Below, in pieces: positions 860 to 12,357 of a DNA stretch of 41,561 nucleotides (position 1 is its first letter; each line of letters opens with the position of its first letter). Below the pieces are notes generated by a model. The model was given only the letters and a program-made list of their open reading frames with translations, was not told where the DNA came from and made no database searches. The DNA lies in contig JAITQD010000014.1 in NCBI GenBank assembly GCA_031289095.1, positions 1-41,561 on the forward strand. The letters run 5' to 3'. This DNA comes from Azoarcus sp. (GTDB lineage Bacteria; Pseudomonadota; Gammaproteobacteria; Burkholderiales; Rhodocyclaceae). The position numbers were made by a program, and so were the translations under genes.

Positions 860-1966
860 TCAGATGCGCATTGGCATGACGACGTATTTGAATCGTTCGT
901 TGCCGGGCAGGGTGATGAGCGCGCTTGAATTGCCGTCGCGGAAACGCCATTCGATGGTTTCCGACGACACGTTGTTGAGCACGTCGAGCAGGTAGCCGAC
1001 GTTGAAGCCGATGTCCAGACGTTCGCCCTGGAAGTCGATTTCGATTTCTTCCAGCGCTTCTTCCTGCTCGGCGTTGGAACTGATGATGGAAAGCACGCCG
1101 CTGTCCAGCACCACCCGCACGCCGTGGAACTTTTCGTTGGAGAGGATCGCGGCCCGTTGCAGGGACGCGAGCAGCATCAGGCGCGGCAGGGCGATGCAGC
1201 CGGGGTGATCCTGCGGAATCACGCGCTGGTAATCGGGGAACTTGCCGTCGATGAGTTTGGTGACGAATTCGACCGAGCCGAAGCGGAATACGGCCTGGTT
1301 ACCGGCGAGAATGATGTCGACTGGGTCGTCGCTGTCGCCGATCTGGCGCGCGAGTTCGAGGATGGTCTTGCGCGGCAGAATGACTTCGCTGCGGGCGGCG
1401 ACGGCGGCGTCGAGTTCGCTTTCGGCGTAGGCCAAGCGGTGACCGTCGGTCGCCACCAGCGTCAGTATATTGCCGTCGGCGATGAGCAGCAGGCCGTTGA
1501 GGTAATAGCGGATGTCCTGCTGCGCCATGGAGTAGGACACCAGCGCCAGTTGCTGCCTGAACACCCGTTGCGGCACGGAAAACCGCGCCGCGTCGCCGGA
1601 AGGCGGCGTGATCAGCGGGTAATCCTCGGCGGGCAGCGTCTGCAACTGGAAGCGGCTGCGCCCGGCCTTGACCGCGAGGCGGCGTTCGTCGAGGGTGAGA
1701 CTGACTTCGGTATCCGGCAGCGCGCGCAGGATGTCCTGCAACTTGCGCGCCCCCACGGTGATCCGGGTGTCCTCTCCGTCGGCGTTGCCCGTGGTGACGG
1801 TGCGGATCTGGATTTCGATGTCGGTGGCGGTGAAGGTCAGGCGGTCACCCGCCTTTTCGATCAGGACGTTCGAGAGGATCGGCAGGGTATGACGCTTCTC
1901 GACGACGCCGGACACCGCTTGCAGCGGCGCGAGCAGGGCATCACGGGTGGTTTTGAGCAGGAGCAT
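860..1966 (-). CDS. dnaN: DNA polymerase III beta sliding clamp
   Basis: DnaN is the ring-shaped processivity clamp that tethers DNA polymerase III to DNA and docks many replication and repair proteins. The product is 368 residues, close to the usual 366-370. It begins [20 protein letters not shown], has the family signature [14 protein letters not shown] near residue 25, and ends in the conserved C-terminus YVVMPMRI. The three repeated clamp folds fit this length. The start ATG (complement at 1964-1966) lies 48 bp past the dnaA stop, consistent with dnaA-dnaN co-transcription. No strong Shine-Dalgarno sequence is visible. Nothing about the protein looks unusual. Confidence 0.98.
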
Positions 1967-2014
1967 GGTCGGTCCGGTGAAAAAAAGGAAAACGCTGGAT
2001 CGGGGAAAAGCGGT

Positions 2015-3433
2015 TCACCCCCGCAAAACCTGGGTGAGCACGTGGACATCGTGGTTGAGTTGCGGCTCGCGCTGGCGCAGGTCTGTCACCGTGCGGCAGG
2101 CGTGCAGCACCGTGGTGTGGTCGCGTCCGCCAAAGGCTTCGCCGATTGCCGGCAGCGACATCGCGGTCAGTTCCTTGGTCAGCCACATCGCCACTTGGCG
2201 CGGGCGCGCGATGGCGCGGGTGCGCTTGCGGGAAAACATGTCGTTGACCTTGATCTTGTAATAGTCGGCCACCGTTTTCTGGATGTGCTCGACCGACAAC
2301 TGGCGGTTGTGGGTGTTGAGCAGATCCTTGAGCGCGTCCTTGGCGACATCGAGCGCAATCTCGCGGTTGTGAAAACGGGCATAGGCCACTACCTTGTTGA
2401 GCGCGCCTTCGAGTTCGCGCACGTTCGAGCGCAGATTTTTGGCGATCAGGAAGGCCACGTCGCCGTCGAGCGCCACCTTGAGCGCTTCGGCCTTCTTTTG
2501 CAGAATGGCGACGCGCATCTCCAGCTCGGGCGCTTCGATCTGCACTGTCAGACCCCAGTCGAAGCGTGAGACCAGGCGGTCTTCCAGCCCCTGAATGTCC
2601 TTGGGATAGGTGTCGCAGGTGATGACGATCTGCTTTTTCGCCTCGGTGAGCGCGTTGAAAGCGTGGAAGAATTCTTCCTTCGTCCTGTCCTTGGTGCGGA
2701 AGAACTGGATGTCGTCGATGATGAGCAGGTCGAGCGAGCGGTAATAACGCTTGAGGGCGTCGAAGCTCTTTTGCTGGTAGGCGCGCACCACGTCGGAGCC
2801 GAAATCTTCGGAATGCACGTAGCGCACCACCGCGCGCGGATTCTGCCGGAACACTTCGTTGCCGATGGCGTGCACGATGTGGGTCTTGCCCAGGCCGACG
2901 CCGCCGTAGATGAACAGCGGGTTGTAGGACGTGCCGGGGTTCTGCGCCACCTGCTTCGCCGCAGCGCGCGCCAGATCGTTGGCGTGGCCCGTGACCAGGG
3001 TGCCGAAAGTGAAATCGGGGTTGAGGCGGGTTTTTTCGTAGGCGAGTTCCGTCCCGGACTGCGCCTTGTCCGGCGCGGGCTCGCGCGCGACCGTCGTCAC
3101 GGCGGGAGCCTGCGGCGGCGGCGGTGCCACTGCGGCGGGCGCGCCGATGGCGGAAACCGCCGCAGCGTGCGCAACGGCGGTCTTTGCCGGCGCCAGTTGC
3201 AGATCGAGCCGCAGGGGCACGCCGTGGAACTCCTCACCCAGTTCGCCGATCCGGCGCAGGTAGCGGTCGCGCACCCATTGCAGGAAGAAGCGGTTGGGCG
3301 CGGTCAGGGTCAGGTGGGGGCCGTCGTCGTCGATGTACTCCGCCGGCAGGGGCTTGATCCAGGTGTTGAACTGCTGGGCAGGCAGCTCCTGCTCCAGACG
3401 CGCCAGACAGAAAAGCCAGAATTCCTGATTCAC
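2015..3433 (-). CDS. dnaA: Chromosomal replication initiator DnaA
   Basis: DnaA binds oriC as an ATP complex and opens the duplex. Visible domains are an N-terminal oligomerisation and helicase-loading domain (EFWLFCLARLEQELPAQQF onward), an Ala/Pro-rich linker, an AAA+ core with Walker A GGVGLGKT and Walker B LLIIDDIQFF, and a C-terminal DnaA-box-binding helix-turn-helix with the GGRDHTTVLHA signature. The start is uncertain. The frame is open to a TTG at 3472 (485 codons), but no Shine-Dalgarno precedes any candidate. I chose the GTG at 3433 (472 aa) because VNQEFW aligns with the start of other DnaA proteins. Identity is certain; the N-terminus is not. Confidence 0.96.
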   Translation of the reverse strand: MNQEFWLFCLARLEQELPAQQFNTWIKPLPAEYIDDDGPHLTLTAPNRFFLQWVRDRYLRRIGELGEEFHGVPLRLDLQLAPAKTAVAHAAAVSAIGAPAAVAPPPPQAPAVTTVAREPAPDKAQSGTELAYEKTRLNPDFTFGTLVTGHANDLARAAAKQVAQNPGTSYNPLFIYGGVGLGKTHIVHAIGNEVFRQNPRAVVRYVHSEDFGSDVVRAYQQKSFDALKRYYRSLDLLIIDDIQFFRTKDRTKEEFFHAFNALTEAKKQIVITCDTYPKDIQGLEDRLVSRFDWGLTVQIEAPELEMRVAILQKKAEALKVALDGDVAFLIAKNLRSNVRELEGALNKVVAYARFHNREIALDVAKDALKDLLNTHNRQLSVEHIQKTVADYYKIKVNDMFSRKRTRAIARPRQVAMWLTKELTAMSLPAIGEAFGGRDHTTVLHACRTVTDLRQREPQLNHDVHVLTQVLRG

Positions 3434-3796
3434 CACGGGAGGGAGGGTTTGCGTTTGCGGCACGGCTTGCAATGGAAGTATCGACCGCGCCCGCCGCGCG
3501 GAGACGGCAAGCGCGCAGTCTTGCGGCTGGATGGAAGGTCGGGCCGGGGCGGGGCCTCGACCAGAACGGGTGGGCGGATTCTACCCTCTCGGCGGCAACT
3601 TATCCACAGGACGGATGCGCCCGTGCGCTTCACATCCGCTTCACACGAATCCCGTTTTCCCTTCCCCGCCCGTTCACATGCGCCTTCCATGCTGGCAGTA
3701 CTCGTGTGCGGGGAAATGCCTCCCGCTCGACGAAACCGGCGGCGTCATGAAAACCTTTCATGTGCCGCGCCAAGTCAGAAAAACCGGGAGAAAACC
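3434..3796. other. Candidate oriC region upstream of dnaA
   Basis: About 360 bp lie between dnaA and the next rightward gene without a convincing gene. They contain one perfect DnaA box (3600-3608) followed by three TTCACA motifs between about 3630 and 3680, in the segment CGCTTCACATCCGCTTCACA and again in GTTCACATG. Origins usually lie beside dnaA in proteobacteria, so this is the natural candidate. I do not see a clear AT-rich unwinding element or a DnaA box array, so oriC assignment rests mainly on context. Confidence 0.55.
3600..3608 (+). promoter_or_regulatory. Consensus DnaA box
   Basis: TTATCCACA matches the high-affinity DnaA box exactly. It lies about 165 bp upstream of the dnaA start, where it could serve replication initiation, dnaA autoregulation, or both. 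Confidence 0.75.
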
Positions 3797-3994
3797 ATGG
3801 GTAATCTGCTTCTGTTCGCCACGCTTTCCGCCATCATGCTGGGCACGCGCCGGTTCGACTGGTACGGTTTGGGACAGGACGCGAAAGCCGCATCGCGCAC
3901 ACGGGAAACGAAACGCTCCCGGGTGCAGCAGGCGTGGGAATATGCCGCACGTCCTGCGGGTCTGGCGGACGGTTTCGGGGGAGACGAAAAATGA
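3797..3994 (+). CDS. Small hypothetical protein coupled to the GH3 gene
   Basis: This is a 65-residue ORF of unrecognised family. It starts MGNLLLFATLSAIMLGTRRF, so the first 16 residues are hydrophobic and could be a membrane anchor or signal segment. The rest is polar and basic (RTRETKRSRVQQAWEYAARP). A GGGAGAAAACC stretch gives a plausible ribosome-binding site about 7 nt before the ATG. Its TGA overlaps the ATG of the downstream glycoside hydrolase in an ATGA arrangement, which suggests translational coupling and supports a real gene. It could instead be a leader ORF. No function can be assigned. Confidence 0.5.
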   Translation: MGNLLLFATLSAIMLGTRRFDWYGLGQDAKAASRTRETKRSRVQQAWEYAARPAGLADGFGGDEK

Positions 3995-5373
3995 TGACAC
4001 GTTCGCTGTTTCACTTTGCCATCTTCCGCCGCCTGCGCTTCGCTGCCTGGTACAAGACCGTCCTCGCCTGGATTGCACTCATCGCGCTGGTCGTTGTCGC
4101 GGCGGCCTTCTTCAAGCATCCCTTGTTGTACTTCTGGCGCGGCGTGGAGACGCCGGTTCTGCTTCTGGCGGGCGGCGCTGGCGCCTGGTTCGCGCAGCGC
4201 GCCCTGTGCGGCGCGGCGCGCCGCCGGAACAGGTTAGAAGCGGGAGCACGGCTCGTCGTCTGCCTGTTGCTGCTGGGGCTGACCGTGGGGCAAGAAGGGT
4301 GGTTCCGATGGCAACAGTTCCGGGTGCGGCAAGGAGACGTGTCGATGGTGTGCATCGGACGGCATTTCGTCGTCGGCTTCCGGGATTTCGACGAGGTGAA
4401 GCCGCTCGCCGAACGCGGTCTCATCGGCGGCATTTACATCACCGCGCGCAACGTCCGGGGCGAGAGCGTGCAAAGCCTGCGCCGGCGCATCGACGAATTG
4501 CAGGCGGCGCGGGCGCGCGCCGGGCTGCCGCCTCTCTTTGTTATGGCGGATCAGGAAGGTGGCGAGGTATCGCACCTTTCACCGCTCATCGAACCCCTGC
4601 CCGCGCTCGCCGATCTGCTCGCCGGCGGCGAAGAAAACCTGGAAGCGCGCGCTCGCGCCCAGGGCGAGCGGCAGGGGCATGCGTTGGCGACGCTCGGCAT
4701 CAACATGAATCTGGCGCCGGTGCTCGACCTGAAGTCCGACGTGAAAGAGGACTGGCTCAATCTGCACACCAAAATCTCACGCCGCGCCATCGCCGCCGAT
4801 CCGCAGATCGTGGCGCGGGTCGCCTCGGCCTACAGCGAAGGCCTCATTGCCAGCGGCATTCAGCCCACGGTCAAGCACTTTCCCGGACTCGGGCGGGTAC
4901 GGGGCGACACGCATCTCGTCAAAGCCAGTCTGGAGACCGATCCCGTGGCGCGCGCCGCCGACTGGCTGCCTTTCCGCGAAGTCACCGCCCGCACCGATGC
5001 GGCGATGATGCTGGCGCACGTCCGTCTGCCCGACATCGACCCACGCGCCCCCGCCTCCCTTTCCCGCCCGCTGGTGCAGGGCATCCTGCGCGAAGGCTGG
5101 AATTATCAAGGCATTCTGATGACCGACGACCTCAACATGATGGCGGTGTACGCCGACGGTATCGGGCGGGCGGCGGCGGCGGCGGTGGATGCAGGGGTGG
5201 ATCTGGTGCTGGTTTCCTACGATCACGACCAGTATTACCGCGCGCTTTACGCGGCCGCTGGCGCCTGGCGCAACGGCGGTATCGACGCCGGGCGCGAGGC
5301 CGGGAGCGGGAAGCGGCTGGAGGCGTACTGGAAAAGGAAGCGCGGGCGAGATGGCGCGGGCGGCAACGATTGA
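3991..5373 (+). CDS. Membrane-anchored family 3 glycoside hydrolase (NagZ-like)
   Basis: This 460-residue protein joins an N-terminal membrane region to a glycoside hydrolase family 3 domain. Likely membrane helices are at about residues 22-41, 52-71 and 86-102. The catalytic domain has MADQEGG near residue 187, the KHFPG motif at 295-299, an Asp-Thr-His a few residues later that matches the acid/base dyad of NagZ enzymes, and MTDDL at 377 with Asp379 as the probable nucleophile. NagZ removes N-acetylglucosamine from recycled muropeptides in the cytoplasm. NagZ proteins are usually near 340 residues and lack this membrane part, so substrate and cell side may differ here. KHFPGLG replaces the usual KHFPGHG. 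Confidence 0.85.
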   Translation: MMTRSLFHFAIFRRLRFAAWYKTVLAWIALIALVVVAAAFFKHPLLYFWRGVETPVLLLAGGAGAWFAQRALCGAARRRNRLEAGARLVVCLLLLGLTVGQEGWFRWQQFRVRQGDVSMVCIGRHFVVGFRDFDEVKPLAERGLIGGIYITARNVRGESVQSLRRRIDELQAARARAGLPPLFVMADQEGGEVSHLSPLIEPLPALADLLAGGEENLEARARAQGERQGHALATLGINMNLAPVLDLKSDVKEDWLNLHTKISRRAIAADPQIVARVASAYSEGLIASGIQPTVKHFPGLGRVRGDTHLVKASLETDPVARAADWLPFREVTARTDAAMMLAHVRLPDIDPRAPASLSRPLVQGILREGWNYQGILMTDDLNMMAVYADGIGRAAAAAVDAGVDLVLVSYDHDQYYRALYAAAGAWRNGGIDAGREAGSGKRLEAYWKRKRGRDGAGGND

Positions 5374-5416
5374 TAGTAGAGTCCACTTGGTATTTTGCTG
5401 CGGAGGACGCCCTCGC

Positions 5417-5632
5417 GTGAGCTGGAACATGTGTCATGGCAAGGCCTGGTCCGGGACGCCGTCGCGGCTGGGCGCGGAAACCGCCAAAAATGATCGCGCG
5501 GCGCGGCGCGAAATCTGGCGGCATTTTCTGCGCGCGCGCCGCGTATCGGCGTATTTGCGGATTCCGGAAGAGCCGTTTTTCCGCTATCGTTATCCGTGGT
5601 GTCCGCCCGTTTGCCGAATAGCCGAATCATGA
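5417..5632 (+). CDS. Possible small ORF ahead of the giant coiled-coil gene
   Basis: A 71-codon ORF opens with GTG about 10 nt after a CGGAGGA sequence and ends in TGA that overlaps the next gene's ATG (ATGA). A shorter version starts at the ATG at 5429. The product is basic and aromatic (RREIWRHFLRARRV, FFRYRYPWC) and matches no family I know. The stop/start overlap is the main argument for translation. It may instead be an untranslated leader carrying the promoter for the downstream gene. Confidence 0.3.
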   Translation: MSWNMCHGKAWSGTPSRLGAETAKNDRAARREIWRHFLRARRVSAYLRIPEEPFFRYRYPWCPPVCRIAES

Positions 5633-8600
5633 AAAAAATCAACGTTCTTTTTATCATCTTTGCCTTACTCGAAATCCCCGCTGCGGTGCTTGGCGCGGCT
5701 TTCCCCGATTCCCGCTGGTATCTGGCGCTTCCCGCCGCGGTGCTGCTGTTGTATCTGGTCGTGGCGGCGACTATGCGCGGGCGGGATGTCTCGGACGAGA
5801 ACTTCGGCGACTCCTGCTATTACCTTGGCTTCATCGCCATGGTCTGCGTGGCCGTCGCCTTCCTGTTTGACATGCAGGAGATTTCCACCCAGAAACTGTC
5901 AGTCATCGCGCAGCGGCTCGGGGCGGCGCTGGCCTGCGTCGCGGTCGGCGTCGGCGCACGGCTTTATTTTGTCGGTTTCAAGCCGAATCTCGTGCAGGCG
6001 CTGGACGATGCCGAGGAAAGCGCCATCAGCGCCGCGCGCACCCTGTACCAGCAGTTGAACACCACACTGGAAAGAGTGCGTGCGTTCGACGTCTCCGTCG
6101 TCGAAGCCGCCCAGGAGGCGGTCGCGCGCGTCTCCGGCGACGTCGAACGCCTGACCGAAGACCATGCCGGGGAACTGTCCAGTTTCTTCGGCAACCTCGT
6201 GCAGACGAACCGGGAAGTGCTCGCCAGAGTCATGGGCGACATCGGAGCGGCCAGCAAGCGCCTGTCGATGTCAGTGGATAACTACGCGGGGACGGTCGAC
6301 AGGCGTCTGGAAGCCATTGTCTTCCCTGACGATTATTTCACGAGCATGCTTCAGACGCCGATGAGCGAGTTTGGCGCCAGCATCGGGCGGGTGACGCACG
6401 ACATCACGGCGCTGACCGGCGGCATGGCCGAATCGCTCGCAAGCCTGAACCCCGCGCTGGTCGAGGTGCGCAAGCGTTCCAACGAGATCGGCGACGCGCT
6501 CGGACACGTCATCGAACTGGCCAAGGCGCAGGAACAGATTCTCGCCAATTCCAGAAGCCAGGCCGGCAACATGGAGGCGATCGCAAAAACCCTGCGCGCC
6601 ACCCAGGACGCCTTGCGCGCCACGCGCGAGGATCTCGGTCAGGTGACGGCAGCGGTTCTTTCCCAGAACGAGGCCTTGGGCAAGTACGTGGAAATCAGCC
6701 AGCGGCAGCAGACCGAGATGTCGAACTCGCTCAATACCCAGAGCCAGGCGCTGACCACGCAAATCGAAACCAGCCGCACGCAGTACGTGAAGATGACGGG
6801 CGCAATCAGCGTGCAGAGCAAGGCGTTGAACGACTATATTCTCGAAAACCAGAAGCGGCAGGACGCAACTTCGGAGCAGGTCGCCGCCCAGGGCAGAGCC
6901 TTGACCGAGCAGGTCGAAACCAGCCGCAGGCTGTATGCCGAGACTTCATCCCTGGTGCTTGCCCAGAGCGAGGTGTTGGGCGAGAACCTCAAGGAACAGG
7001 CCGGGCTGTCTTCTGCGGTCGCCACCCAGACCGAGGTGTTGACCCGGCAGATCGAGACTTCCTACAGGCAGCAAAACGAAATGTCGGAATCGACGCAGAC
7101 CCAGATCCGGGCGCTGACCAGCTACATCGAGGACAGTCAGCGCCAGCAGGCGGGGGCGGCGGCAGCATTTGCCACGCAGACCGAGTTGCTGGCAAGGCAT
7201 ATCGAGGACAATCACGCACGGTATGCCGAGGTGTCGTCCGTCGTCGTGGCCAGCCAGCATCGCCAGGACGAGGCGCTGGCCGCGATCGCCGCCCAGGGCG
7301 AAATATTGGGCCAGAACGTCGCGCAGCAGGGCAAACTGTCGGATGCCCTGCACACCCAGACCCAGGTGTTGAGTCGGCACGTCGATACCAGCCAGCAGCA
7401 GTACGCCGGACTGTCGTCCGCCGCGACGGATCAGACCATGGCGCTGGCCCGCTACGTCGAGATCAGCCAGAAGCAGCAGCTCGAAGCCTCGGCGGCGGTC
7501 ATCGCGCAGAGCGAGGCGATTTCCCGGCAGGTCGAGACGAATCGCGCCCAGTACGACGAAATTTCCGTCGCAATCCTGACCCAGGGGCAGCAGCAGGCCG
7601 AACTGTCCAACGCGGTTGCCAGCCAGGCCCAGGCTTTGGCCAGCTACGTTGAAAGCAGCCAGAAACAGCAGCTCGAAGCCTCGGCGGCGGTCATCGCGCA
7701 GAGCGAGGCGCTGGGTCGGCACGTCGACGCGGGCCGCGAGCAGAACACCGAACTGACGGCGGCGCTCGTTGCGCAGGGGCATGCGCTAGCGCAGCAGATC
7801 GACACCAGCCAGAAGCAGTACAAGACGCTCACGCAGTTCGTCGAAGCCAGCAAGCGCCAGCACGTCGAGGCTTCGGCGGCGGTCGTTGCGCAGTCCGAGT
7901 CCCTGATCCAGCACGTCGAGTCCAGCCGCAAACAGTATGCCGACATGTCGGCTGCGGTGCTGGCTCAGAGTCAGGCGCTGGGCGCACACGTCGAGAACAA
8001 CCAGCAGCAGTACGCCGACGTTTCTGCCACGGTCACTGCGCAAACCGAGGCGCTCACCCGGAGCATCGAATACGGACGCCAGCAGCAGTCCGACGTGTCG
8101 ACCGCGTTCATCGCCCAGACCCAAGCGCTCAGGCAGTTCGTCGAGGAAAGCCACCGGCATTACGCCGACGTGTCGGACACGGTGGTCGAGCAGAGCCAGG
8201 CGCTTGCCCGGCAGGCCGAAGTCGGTCAGCGCCAGCATGCCGAGGCATTGGCTGCAATTTCCATGCAGGGCGAGGCGTTGACCCGGCACGTCGAGGGCAG
8301 CCGCAAGCAGCACGAAGAAGTTTCGGCGGCGCTTGTCGCCCAGGGTGAAGCGCTGGCGCAGGACGTCGAGAACAACCGCAAGCAGCAGGCCGATGCCACG
8401 ACTGCGGCCATGTCCCAGGCGCGTGTTCTGGTGCAATACGTCGAGAACAGCCAGAAACAGCAGGCTGAAGCCTCGGCGGCAATCGTCGCGCAGGGGAAGG
8501 ATCTGGCGCGGCAGATCGAAACCAGCAAGAAGCAATACGCCGAAATGACGACGGCGCTCGTTGCGCAGAGCCGGGCCATCGAATACGGGCAGAAACGGCA

Positions 8601-9327
8601 GACCGAGGCCTCCGGCGCGCTCGTCGCCCAAGGGCAGAACCTGGCCCAGTACATCGAGGCGACCCAGAAACAGCAGGCCGAAATATCTGCCGCGCTCACC
8701 GCCCAGGGCGATGCGCTGGCTCAGTACATCGAACTTGGCCGACAACAATACGCCGAACTAGCTGCGCAGGCGGAGGCCGGCGAGAAGCAGTACACCGACG
8801 TGTCCGCCGCGCTGATGACACAGGGCGAATCCCTGGCGCGGCACGTCGAGAGCAGCCGCAAGCAGCAGTCCGACATATCGAACACGATGATGACCCAGAA
8901 CCGGGCGCTGACGCAGCACATCGAGACCAGCCAGAAGCAGTTCGCCGAGTTGTCGGCGCTGGCGGCTGCCCAGGCCGGCGCCATTGAGACCGCCCAGAAG
9001 CAGCAGGCCGAGTTGGCCACCGCGCTCACCGGACAGGGCAAGGCGCTGCTGCAACAATCCGATGATGGCCAGAAGCGGTATGCCGACATTTCGACTGCGG
9101 CCCTGACCCAGAGCCGCGCCTTGGCGGCGATCGTCGAGGAAAGCCGCGCACAACAGCAGAAGGTGGTGGTCGCAATCCAGAATCAGATTCAACTGCTGGA
9201 GGAGCAGGCGGAAAACAGCCGCAAGCAGCAGGCCAGCATGACGATTTCGGCCAAGGAACTTTCCCTCATCCGGCAGGCGCTCCAGGCGATGCGGCAGCAT
9301 CGTGACACGCTGGCGGGCGAACAATGA
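5629..9327 (+). CDS. Giant membrane-anchored coiled-coil repeat protein
   Basis: A 1232-residue protein of unrecognised family. Residues 1-116 contain four hydrophobic segments (about 5-25, 31-50, 64-83, 95-113). The positive residues, MKK at the N-terminus, RGR between helices 2 and 3, and the K after helix 4, place the long tail in the cytoplasm. Residues 120-352 are predicted helical, broken by a short FPDDYF stretch. Residues 353 to about 1215 consist of about 34 copies of a 25-residue Gln/Ala/Ser/Glu-rich unit resembling YVESSQKQQLEASAAVIAQ plus SEALGR. A repeat of 25 residues over seven turns fits a long, nearly straight coiled coil. The next gene follows after 32 bp and probably encodes its partner. 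A cytoplasmic tail this long recalls ZorA or chemoreceptor-like stalks, but no homology is claimed. Confidence 0.85.
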   Translation: MKKINVLFIIFALLEIPAAVLGAAFPDSRWYLALPAAVLLLYLVVAATMRGRDVSDENFGDSCYYLGFIAMVCVAVAFLFDMQEISTQKLSVIAQRLGAALACVAVGVGARLYFVGFKPNLVQALDDAEESAISAARTLYQQLNTTLERVRAFDVSVVEAAQEAVARVSGDVERLTEDHAGELSSFFGNLVQTNREVLARVMGDIGAASKRLSMSVDNYAGTVDRRLEAIVFPDDYFTSMLQTPMSEFGASIGRVTHDITALTGGMAESLASLNPALVEVRKRSNEIGDALGHVIELAKAQEQILANSRSQAGNMEAIAKTLRATQDALRATREDLGQVTAAVLSQNEALGKYVEISQRQQTEMSNSLNTQSQALTTQIETSRTQYVKMTGAISVQSKALNDYILENQKRQDATSEQVAAQGRALTEQVETSRRLYAETSSLVLAQSEVLGENLKEQAGLSSAVATQTEVLTRQIETSYRQQNEMSESTQTQIRALTSYIEDSQRQQAGAAAAFATQTELLARHIEDNHARYAEVSSVVVASQHRQDEALAAIAAQGEILGQNVAQQGKLSDALHTQTQVLSRHVDTSQQQYAGLSSAATDQTMALARYVEISQKQQLEASAAVIAQSEAISRQVETNRAQYDEISVAILTQGQQQAELSNAVASQAQALASYVESSQKQQLEASAAVIAQSEALGRHVDAGREQNTELTAALVAQGHALAQQIDTSQKQYKTLTQFVEASKRQHVEASAAVVAQSESLIQHVESSRKQYADMSAAVLAQSQALGAHVENNQQQYADVSATVTAQTEALTRSIEYGRQQQSDVSTAFIAQTQALRQFVEESHRHYADVSDTVVEQSQALARQAEVGQRQHAEALAAISMQGEALTRHVEGSRKQHEEVSAALVAQGEALAQDVENNRKQQADATTAAMSQARVLVQYVENSQKQQAEASAAIVAQGKDLARQIETSKKQYAEMTTALVAQSRAIEYGQKRQTEASGALVAQGQNLAQYIEATQKQQAEISAALTAQGDALAQYIELGRQQYAELAAQAEAGEKQYTDVSAALMTQGESLARHVESSRKQQSDISNTMMTQNRALTQHIETSQKQFAELSALAAAQAGAIETAQKQQAELATALTGQGKALLQQSDDGQKRYADISTAALTQSRALAAIVEESRAQQQKVVVAIQNQIQLLEEQAENSRKQQASMTISAKELSLIRQALQAMRQHRDTLAGEQ
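6685..9273 (+). repeat. In-frame 75-bp tandem repeats coding 25-residue coiled-coil units
   Basis: Successive units start at 6685, 6760 and 6835 and continue at 75-bp steps. Most units are 25 codons. Exceptions are 14, 21, 22 or 39 codons. The typical unit begins with an aromatic, His or Gln residue, then V/I-E-x-S-x-x-Q, and ends A-Q-S/G-x-A-L-x-x. The units are diverged at the DNA level, so this is an old repeat array under protein-level selection, with some recent duplication. Confidence 0.9.
7474..7710 (+). repeat. Perfect 45-bp direct repeat inside the coiled-coil array
   Basis: An identical 45-bp stretch, starting CAGCAGCTCGAAGCC, occurs at 7474-7518 and 7666-7710, 192 bp (64 codons) apart. 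It encodes QQLEASAAVIAQSEA in both copies. The spacing equals one 25-residue plus one 39-residue unit, which points to recent duplication or gene conversion. Confidence 0.85.
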
Positions 9328-9359: not shown

Positions 9360-10514
9360 ATGTATAGAGGCAGCGACAGCGTTTTCCGGCTTTCCCTGAC
9401 CGGAACCATGTTCATCTTCATCCTCTTTCTTCTGGTTGTGTTTGGCCGGATGTATTATGACGCTGACATTTCCCGGAGCGAGGCCCTCGCCCGCCTGTCC
9501 AAACGCCAGCAAGAAGATGCGCTTCCCAAGGCGCGCGAGGCTTTTGAGGCCGTCCGCCAGGCGCTGCGCACCCAGCTCGATCCGACGGGCGCGAACGTCG
9601 ATGAAGTGCTCAAGGGTCTGCTCGACAAGGCGCATGCGGAAGCTGAAGTCGACGAACTGAAGGTGCGTGTTCAGGAACTCAATACCCAGTTGGCGGGGCT
9701 GTCCGGAATCAGGGATGTTCTGGCGCAAGCTGGCAAGGCCGCTACCCTGAATGGCGCGACCGAGGATGCCTTGATCTCGGCGCTCGAACTGCGCGCCCGG
9801 TTGGCGCAGAAAGTCCTCGCCAACCGGCCTGCGTCCGCGTCGCGCGAACTGACCGACAGCGAAATTTCTTCCCAGACGCTGACGGCGCTCGAACTCCGGC
9901 GCCAGATCGAAATGCGGCTCGAAAAAGAACTCGGACAACCGCTTGCGCCCGGTCAGGAGGCGGTCTGGGCGAAATGGCTGCTTGATACGCGCTTACTACA
10001 GATCGCAGGCGGCGCAAGCGAAAGCAACGTTCCGCGCGCCCGGACGGGCGGCGGCGACATCGCGCCGCCGCGCCAGCAGCAGTCCGCCGCTACCGTGGTG
10101 GTGCAGTCTGAAGTCTCGCAGCCGCCGCCCGCCGGGGTCGATATTACTTCTCTGCACACCCGTCTTGGCACCCAGAGCAACGACGCCGTCCCGCCTTGTT
10201 GGGTCGACCGGGTGGGCAACGTCCAGTTTTTACTGACGCTCGAACTGCGATCCAGCGGCGTGCTGGTTTCGCCTGCCTGGCCGCCCGGGCGCGAAACCGA
10301 GGCGCGAGCAATACCCGGCATCGACCGGCTGCTGATAAGGGGGCCGATCGCGTACCGCAATTTCGACGAACGCATCCAGACCGTCGCACAACACAGCGGC
10401 AGCCAGTGCCATTACGCCGTCCAGGTGAAGGACAACATGCGCGATGCCATGCGCTCGGAACGGGTTCACCAGCAGCTTGAGGCGCTGTTCAATCTGGCGC
10501 ACTTGCCGCGCTGA
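9360..10514 (+). CDS. Single-span membrane protein, probable partner of the giant coiled-coil protein
   Basis: A 384-residue protein of unrecognised family. A short N-terminus (MYRGSDSVFR) precedes one membrane helix at about residues 13-32, followed by RMYYDADIS. The charge pattern suggests N-in, C-out topology. Residues 40-110 and 150-210 are helical. A Pro/Gln-rich linker near 230-265 leads to a compact C-terminal domain with PPCWVDRVGNVQFLL and SQCHYAVQV. These contain the only two cysteines of the protein and could form a disulfide. It lies 32 bp after the giant gene on the same strand. The order, polytopic cytoplasmic-tail protein then single-span periplasmic protein, resembles MotA/MotB, ExbB/ExbD and ZorA/ZorB pairs. 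I see no OmpA-like peptidoglycan-binding motif and no Asp inside the helix, so the analogy is architectural only. Confidence 0.8.
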   Translation: MYRGSDSVFRLSLTGTMFIFILFLLVVFGRMYYDADISRSEALARLSKRQQEDALPKAREAFEAVRQALRTQLDPTGANVDEVLKGLLDKAHAEAEVDELKVRVQELNTQLAGLSGIRDVLAQAGKAATLNGATEDALISALELRARLAQKVLANRPASASRELTDSEISSQTLTALELRRQIEMRLEKELGQPLAPGQEAVWAKWLLDTRLLQIAGGASESNVPRARTGGGDIAPPRQQQSAATVVVQSEVSQPPPAGVDITSLHTRLGTQSNDAVPPCWVDRVGNVQFLLTLELRSSGVLVSPAWPPGRETEARAIPGIDRLLIRGPIAYRNFDERIQTVAQHSGSQCHYAVQVKDNMRDAMRSERVHQQLEALFNLAHLPR

Positions 10515-10683: not shown

Positions 10684-10701
10684 AAACTTCCATTCACGAC
10701 C

Positions 10702-11472
10702 ATGGCACATGTCTTTTGCGTGGCGAACCAGAAAGGCGGCGTGGGCAAGACCACCACCAGCGTCAATCTGGCCGCCGCCCTGCATCAAGCCGGCAAACGC
10801 ACGCTACTCGTCGATCTCGATCCGCAGGGCAACGCCACCATGGGCAGCGGTATCGACAAGCGCACCCTCCAACATTCGGTCTATCACCTGCTGGTGGGAC
10901 TGGCCGGGCTAGAGGCGGTGCGGGTCGCGTCGCCGCCCGGCGGCTACGACATCCTGCCCGCCAATCGAGACCTGGCCGGGGCCGAAATCGAACTGGTCAA
11001 CCTCGAACGGCGCGAAAAACGCTTGCGCGAGGCGTTGACCGCCTGTGCGGACGATTACGATTTTGTCCTCGTCGATTGCCCGCCCTCGCTCTCGCTTCTG
11101 ACGCTCAACGGCCTGTGCGCCGCGCATGGGGTCATCATTCCGATGCAGTGCGAATACTACGCGCTGGAAGGTCTCTCCGACTTGGTCAACTCGATCAAGA
11201 AAGTCCATGCCAACCTCAACCGCGACCTCAAGATCATCGGCTTGTTGCGGGTGATGTTCGATCCCCGCATTACTTTGCAACAGCAGGTTTCGGCCCAGCT
11301 CGAAGGCCATTTTGGCGACAAGGTGTTCAATGCCGTGGTGCCGCGCAACGTCCGGCTGGCCGAAGCGCCCAGCCATGGCGTGCCGGGCGTGGTGTTTGAC
11401 CGCGCTTCCCGCGGCGCACACGCTTACCTCGCATTCGCTGAAGAACTGATCGAACGGGTCGGGACGCTGTGA
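10702..11472 (+). CDS. parA: Chromosome partitioning ATPase ParA (Soj family)
   Basis: ParA is a Walker-type ATPase that binds DNA nonspecifically and, with ParB bound at parS, moves the newly replicated origin regions apart. The 256-residue product has the deviant Walker A KGGVGKTT at 11-18, VDLDPQGNAT at about 37-46, and VDCPPSLSLLT as Walker B. The length and absence of an N-terminal helix-turn-helix fit the chromosomal type. The start ATG (MAHVFCVANQKGG) was chosen over upstream frame openings because it places the Walker motif at the usual position. parB follows 33 bp later. mnmG and rsmG, which often precede parA, are absent here. Confidence 0.96.
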   Translation: MAHVFCVANQKGGVGKTTTSVNLAAALHQAGKRTLLVDLDPQGNATMGSGIDKRTLQHSVYHLLVGLAGLEAVRVASPPGGYDILPANRDLAGAEIELVNLERREKRLREALTACADDYDFVLVDCPPSLSLLTLNGLCAAHGVIIPMQCEYYALEGLSDLVNSIKKVHANLNRDLKIIGLLRVMFDPRITLQQQVSAQLEGHFGDKVFNAVVPRNVRLAEAPSHGVPGVVFDRASRGAHAYLAFAEELIERVGTL

Positions 11473-11505
11473 CCGGAACATGGCGCGCATGACTGTAAAA
11501 ACGAT

Positions 11506-12357
11506 ATGACTCCACCCAGACAAAAGGGCCTCGGACGCGGTCTCGACGCGCTGCTGGCGGCCAACCGCGACGACGAAACCGAAAAAGGCGAATTGCAGTC
11601 CCTGCCGCGTGAGGCCTTGTGCCCCGGCAAGTACCAGCCCCGCACCCGCATGGATCCCGGCTCGCTCGAAGAACTGGCGGCCTCGATCAAGGAACAGGGC
11701 ATCATGCAGCCGATCCTCGTGCGTCCCGTGGCGGACGACGCCTACGAGATCGTCGCGGGCGAACGGCGCTGGCGGGCGGCGGCGCTCGCCGATCTTGATG
11801 AGGTGCCCTGCCTGGTGCGGGAAATTCCCGACAATGCCGCGCTGGCGATGTCGCTGATCGAAAACATCCAGCGCGAGAACCTCAATCCGCTCGAAGAAGC
11901 CAGCGGCATCCAGCGCCTGATCGACGAATTCGGCATGACCCACCAAGAGGCCGCCGACGCGGTGGGCCGCTCGCGTCCAGCGGCGAGCAACCTGCTCCGG
12001 CTGCTCAATCTCGCCCAGCCGGTGCAGGAACTTCTCATCGCGGGTGACATCGATATGGGGCACGCGCGCGCGCTGCTGCCGCTCGACGGCGCCAGCCAGA
12101 TACGCATCGCCAATCAAGTGGCGGCGCGCCAGCTTTCGGTGCGCGAGGCCGAAAAGCTCGTGCAACAAGAACTGAATCCACGCCCGCAAAAAGCGGAATC
12201 CGCACCGAACCGCGATCTGCTTCGGCTGGAAGAGGAAATCGCCGACGCGATCGGCGCCATGGTGAAGATCAAGGCAAACCGCAAGGGCGCAGGGGAAATG
12301 GTGATCCGTTTTGCCAGTCTGGATCAGCTTGATGGCCTGCTCGGGCGTCTGCGTTGA
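11506..12357 (+). CDS. parB: Chromosome partitioning protein ParB
   Basis: ParB is the CTPase that loads at parS sites, spreads along DNA and recruits ParA and condensin. The 283-residue protein starts with the basic KGLGRGLDALL motif that ParB proteins use to contact ParA. It then has the CTP-binding GERRWRAA at 85-92, ENIQREN from 119, a helix-turn-helix near 145-180 (TQ-like segment MTHQEAADAVGRSRPAASN) and a C-terminal dimerisation domain. It forms an operon with parA. No full parS palindrome was found in the window. Confidence 0.96.
   Translation: MTPPRQKGLGRGLDALLAANRDDETEKGELQSLPREALCPGKYQPRTRMDPGSLEELAASIKEQGIMQPILVRPVADDAYEIVAGERRWRAAALADLDEVPCLVREIPDNAALAMSLIENIQRENLNPLEEASGIQRLIDEFGMTHQEAADAVGRSRPAASNLLRLLNLAQPVQELLIAGDIDMGHARALLPLDGASQIRIANQVAARQLSVREAEKLVQQELNPRPQKAESAPNRDLLRLEEEIADAIGAMVKIKANRKGAGEMVIRFASLDQLDGLLGRLR

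Follow-up and report, generated by a model that had tools for sequence, protein, structure and literature searches.

What could a bacterium do with a membrane protein of 1232 residues, much of it a tandem coiled-coil repeat? The question is raised by a contig of Azoarcus sp. (GenBank assembly GCA_031289095.1, contig JAITQD010000014.1; all 41,561 nucleotides of it are referred to here as the window). In the window, ORF1 encodes this protein and ORF2, which starts 32 bases downstream in the same direction and was overlooked in an earlier note on this DNA, encodes its candidate partner. We consider it probable that ORF1 and ORF2 form a former ion motor that now serves as a passive rod or scaffold.

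A motor-like membrane core without the expected residues

The features that bear on the membrane part of the complex are:

5629..9327, + strand: ORF1, 1232 residues, an A-subunit-like membrane protein with a predicted giant coiled-coil cytoplasmic tail (intact open reading frame; profile and fold matches)
5644..5973, + strand: four transmembrane helices of ORF1, at residues ~6-24, 31-49, 62-80 and 90-115 by hydropathy and 2-24, 28-48, 56-82 and 90-115 in the AlphaFold2 model
5839..5841, + strand: codon of Met71 in the third transmembrane helix of ORF1; Thr in 22/22 short-tail relatives and 9/15 long-tail members
5938..5940, + strand: codon of Val104 in the fourth transmembrane helix of ORF1; Thr in 22/22 short-tail relatives and 4/15 long-tail members
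9360..10514, + strand: ORF2, 384 residues, a partner resembling a B subunit, with a single transmembrane helix and a domain that is presumably periplasmic (open reading frame, hydropathy, model)
9402..9404, + strand: codon of Gly15 of ORF2, the site of an invariant Glu in short-tail relatives (alignment)
10191..10511, + strand: folded C-terminal domain of ORF2, residues 278-384, with conserved Cys280 and Cys350; weakly TolR/ExbD-like (model, alignment)

The membrane core of ORF1 aligns with both the profile and the fold of A subunits of the MotA/TolQ/ExbB/ZorA superfamily. The earlier note had suggested a comparison with such folds while knowing of no named family with its repeat; the relation is supported, and ORF1 does not belong to an orphan family. 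The four N-terminal hydrophobic segments described there are found again by hydropathy and by AlphaFold2. The model, which extends to residue 299, has the four membrane helices within the first 115 residues and is helical throughout thereafter (mean predicted local distance difference test score, pLDDT, 76; membrane part mostly 84-92, one block 72). Asp61, Gly67 and Gly107 of the core are invariant in 37/37 sequences. We rejected as kin the Pfam matches to Apolipoprotein, Baculo_PEP_C and the like, and the Protein Data Bank (PDB) matches to apolipoproteins, designed bundles and the tails of three ZorA chains, all of which reflect coiled-coil composition. The PADLOC matches of short relatives to ZorA fall mostly within the tail, and we set them aside in judging the core; a PADLOC scan confined to the pair matched neither ORF1 nor ORF2.

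ORF2 has the layout of a B subunit. Its single membrane helix lies close to the N-terminus and is followed by a stalk of helix and by a C-terminal domain that is modelled well (pLDDT 84-97 over residues 281-384) and, judging from charges, would lie outside. An OmpA domain was not found in the ORF2 C-terminus, in a comparison whose control was unreliable since one of five shuffled sequences scored 99.6 per cent. The window's genome contains no second gene of this type at E 1. Cys280 and Cys350 (window positions 10197-10199 and 10407-10409) are kept in 38/38 aligned intact ORF2-type proteins, the broken one of locus L088 left out, and likely form a periplasmic disulfide. That broken gene, in Piscinibacter aquaticus (L088, 9604-10948), is split over two frames and is either truly broken or mis-sequenced.

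Motors of this kind use an acidic residue of the B subunit to move ions past a Ser/Thr ring formed by the A subunits, and the membrane Asp of ZorB is required for Zorya defence (available sections of PMC11890865); the Asp of MotB is also covered (available sections of PMC9389320). ORF2 has Gly at residue 15, and its residues 9-33 are free of both Asp and Glu. In ORF1, the positions that alignment would equate with the ring are occupied by Met71 and Val104. Glycine is unable to carry protons. We infer that the complex of the window is a non-conducting former motor. Glu15 of the short-tail relatives may be the counterpart of the catalytic Asp of known motors, a link that is indirect.

Four changes on one branch

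How did such a complex arise? Using a short core pattern, we collected 36 loci from species genomes. With the window, this gives 37 sets, and in 37/37 a gene of ORF1 type (C) is adjacent to one of ORF2 type (D); three additional fragments (L065, L066 and L070) run up to the ends of their contigs. Half of the loci (18/36) carry an operon of four genes: A (~480 residues, membrane), B (~267 residues, one helix), C (423-583 residues) and D. Fourteen others are long-tail C-D pairs, three (L094, L103 and L104) are short C-D pairs, and L106 lies too near an end to tell.

All 15 long-tail proteins fall on one side of a branch in the C-core tree (support 100/100), and the four-gene loci L083 and L084 stand next to them (joint support 100/99). 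The D tree, with the broken L088 left out, agrees: 17 long-tail rows at 100/100 and a joint value of 100/99. Four changes map to the long-tail branch, which they share, and they are not mutually independent. Genes A and B were lost (among 21 genomes of the genus they are present in one, the short-tail G006); whole C proteins went from 423-583 to 1043-1363 residues; the 25-residue repeat arose; and D residue 15, Glu in 22/22 short-type proteins, became Gly in 17/17 of the long type. Alphaproteobacterial cousins have Glu at this position in 8/8 cases, as read by eye.

The earlier note had also proposed a force-transmitting tail. In the window's lineage we find no support for such a tail with an ion motor of its own: the sole acidic membrane residue of the partner is gone, and ORF1 of the window also lacks both threonines kept in 22/22 short-tail relatives. 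A motor could still be active if another residue or bound water carried the ions and the long tail were a drive shaft. The invariant Asp61, Gly67 and Gly107 would fit this reading, as would the case of ZorA, whose tail is indispensable for its function and is mounted on an ion-driven motor (available sections of PMC11890865). So would selection. Ratios of nonsynonymous to synonymous substitution (dN/dS, Nei-Gojobori) in six long-tail pairs are 0.08-0.35 for the core, 0.13-0.32 for full C and 0.18-0.30 for D, compared with 0.16-0.38 in two short-tail pairs, and both genes of the pair are under purifying selection. However, residues 9-33 of D are free of acid in 17/17 long-tail members, both threonines are gone in the window, and the Zorya precedent requires the ZorB Asp; we regard an active motor as quite improbable. 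Tail growth alone is no sign of motor loss, since the C protein of Microvirga (L110, 8780-10675) has lengthened its tail with an 18-residue repeat of its own (z 11) and kept its motor residues intact.

A tail of 25-residue units

Beyond the membrane, ORF1 consists of:

5989..6675, + strand: non-repetitive region, residues 121-349, which aligns with short-tail relatives and is helical to residue 299, where the model ends
6676..9270, + strand: array of 30 full 25-residue units and seven inserts, residues 350-1214, consensus LARQVETSQKQQAEVSAAVVAQSEA (in-frame 75-bp units; position matrix)
9253..9294, + strand: conserved tail tip KELSLIRQALQAMR, a possible docking site overlapping the last unit (KEL[SA][LI]I[RK]QAL in 12/15 long-tail members)

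Over the last 902 residues of ORF1, identity at a lag of 25 is 0.29 (z = 20 against 200 shuffles). The in-frame 75-bp units of the earlier note are confirmed, and its count of about 34 copies over 863 residues becomes 30 full units in an array of 865 residues, interrupted by seven inserts of 21, 10, 14, 14, 21, 14 and 21 residues. The unit matrix was trained on ORF1 itself and lists 31 units, from which an isolated match at 183-207 was left out. Distances between units are 25 (22 times), 39 (three times), 46 (three times) and 35 (once), and most of them equal 25 or exceed it by a multiple of 7. The Fourier period of hydrophobicity is 3.56 residues per turn, close to the 3.571 put forward earlier. 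If the array were one unbroken straight helix, and only then, it would span 865 x 0.148 nm = 128 nm.

The repeat belongs to the long-tail proteins. A lag of 25 ranks first in 7/7 long tails tested and falls outside the top eight in 6/6 short tails; 14 long-tail relatives have 20-30 matches to the unit (a few isolated ones included), and 22 short-type proteins have 0-2. Four relatives (L077, L078, L079 and L087) have inherited a common spacing pattern of 20 x 25, 4 x 46 and 3 x 39. Low dN/dS, the kept tail tip and this inherited spacing together indicate that the ORF1-ORF2 pair is maintained.

Must such a tail be a rod? It could instead be a folded-back or flexible domain rich in Gln and Ala, with its length little constrained. 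The varying unit counts among relatives, the independent gain of a different repeat in Microvirga and the abundance of Ala and Gln (297/902 tail residues) are what one would expect of such a domain. The inherited spacing speaks against it, as does tail identity per 50 residues of 0.45-0.63, compared with 0.32-0.64 in the first 350, although repeats may inflate the tail figure. The hydrophobic period, moreover, suits a continuous coil. We judge a flexible tail to be unlikely, and return to the passive rod below.

Distribution and the four-gene operon

Within the window's genus, the ORF1 N-terminus is found in 17/21 genomes and ORF2 in 18/21. Long-tail relatives come from metagenome-assembled genomes (MAGs) of Azoarcus sp. 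or of Betaproteobacteria or Proteobacteria, which we take to be of termite-gut origin. The four-gene loci (L086, L088-L093, L095-L102, L105, L083 and L084; alphaproteobacterial L109-L111 and L174-L178) are on plasmids or in scattered species. The same A-B-C-D order is found on alphaproteobacterial plasmids (eight examined of 24 records with B). Five of these eight records label D an OmpA family protein, and OmpA scores of D are 28.7 bits in Rhizobium (cut-off 27.2), 27.1 in Paracoccus and 17.4 in Microvirga. A scan for ZorB1 in 274 genomes of the class listed OmpA-domain stretches for the most part, and we took it no further.

Among the members scanned, A and B have no Pfam or NCBIfam match at cut-off. 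One A protein weakly matches PADLOC LeoBC (E 7.8e-5), and A has no PDB match at E 0.1; in L102 the gene is split. A von Willebrand A-like domain in B is a hint only (integrin E 0.24, with dehydrogenases ranking above).

Could the pair be a reduced phage-defence system, one that detects damage to the envelope, as has been suggested of Zorya, and uses its long tail to recruit an effector encoded elsewhere? The spread of short-tail relatives across distant species and plasmids would suit defence, and a thermonuclease gene is annotated near the operon in 5/8 alphaproteobacterial records. A strict thermonuclease motif also occurs in 4/18 of the other four-gene loci, and these nucleases hint at a DNA-directed or defence role for A-B-C-D. 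In the published Zorya model, the ZorA rod recruits effectors or nucleases (available sections of PMC11890865). The two-gene sets look different: the thermonuclease motif occurs in 0/19, the pair is near-universal in the genus, and argJ lies upstream in 8/19 other stretches searched (with secA in 7 of those 8). No C-type protein was found in viral contigs, and no gene A in phages. For the pair itself, a defence role seems to us a rather remote prospect.

In the window, the pair lies between dnaA/dnaN-like genes (identified by eye; 860-3472) and parA/parB (10699-12357), and in L083 (349-5683) the four-gene locus follows dnaA and dnaN (by blastp) and a gyrB-like gene (by eye). We rejected the adjoining parAB as support for a chromosome tether: the stretches of relatives searched, some of which end near the pair, yielded neither ParA nor ParB. 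Upstream of the pair, a GH3-like gene (3531-5420, by eye, in frame from 3934) overlaps long open reading frames in other frames.

A proposed scaffold derived from a motor

We propose that the pair forms a complex, with ORF1 as its A subunit and ORF2 as its B subunit, that descends from an ion-driven motor of the MotA/TolQ/ExbB/ZorA type. The ancestor would have been encoded by an A-B-C-D operon and had a moderate tail. On the branch leading to the clade of the window, the operon would have lost genes A and B, Gly would have replaced the B-subunit Glu, the presumed ion carrier, and the A subunit's cytoplasmic tail would have been extended by tandem 25-residue coiled-coil units to whole proteins of 1043-1363 residues. 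The present complex most likely neither conducts ions nor rotates. ORF2 would anchor it in the periplasm, and the membrane core of ORF1 would bundle several tails, which might project into the cytoplasm as a single long, nearly straight coil whose conserved tip or repeats bind or space a putative cargo. Given that the published model has ZorA rods recruiting effectors, the simplest view of a longer tail, made of repeats and set on a silent core, is that of a passive mast or scaffold. The likeliest role for the ORF1 tail would be that of a long tether or rod in the cytoplasm, as the earlier note also suggested. Homology, the single branch shared by the four changes, the altered residues and purifying selection are shown here; stoichiometry, loss of conduction, the shape of a rod and the part of a scaffold are inferred.

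A more specific version is tentative, and we would hold it at somewhat less than even confidence. In this gut-symbiont lineage, a non-conducting five-plus-two stator might foot a straight coiled-coil mast of at least 130 nm, a cytoplasmic ruler or spacer built from a duplicated 25-residue unit, and its A-B-C-D source might be an apparently undescribed thermonuclease-linked motor system. Pseudoenzymes are well studied; a pseudo-motor whose earlier and later states are both preserved in one genus would, if true, be a rare natural experiment on the use of a motor core that has stopped turning. A-B-C-D itself is a four-gene motor-like operon of Proteobacteria, and a candidate phage-defence system open to experiment.

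Comparison with known systems

Non-flagellar A subunits bear diverse extensions, and the available part of the paper that describes them makes no mention of a family like ORF1/ORF2 (PMC12505986). In the literature, which we covered in part, we recognized no description of the family; this does not imply that it is unpublished.

ORF1 shares with ZorA a long helical cytoplasmic tail on an A subunit, modelled as helix to residue 299. Compared with ZorAB of Zorya type II (PDB 8vvi; available sections of PMC11890865), ORF1 has one extra N-terminal helix, and its tail is about four times longer than the 279 residues there and is made of 25-residue units. The partner helix has Gly in place of the acid, and an OmpA domain was not detected in ORF2. 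We recognized no Zorya effector gene (zorC/zorD, zorE or type III partners) beside the pair, where PADLOC covered ORF1 and ORF2 and the nearest neighbors are the GH3-like gene (by eye), parA and parB. These neighbors also set the pair apart from TolQ-TolR and ExbB-ExbD, as do the ORF1 tail of ~1100 residues and the acid-free helix of ORF2.

Another close system is the A-B-C-D operon, found in Proteobacteria and one Nitrospirota MAG. Its C and D are direct homologues of ORF1 and ORF2. In contrast to the window pair, its whole C protein has 423-583 residues and no 25-residue array, its D keeps the Glu, and A and B are present.
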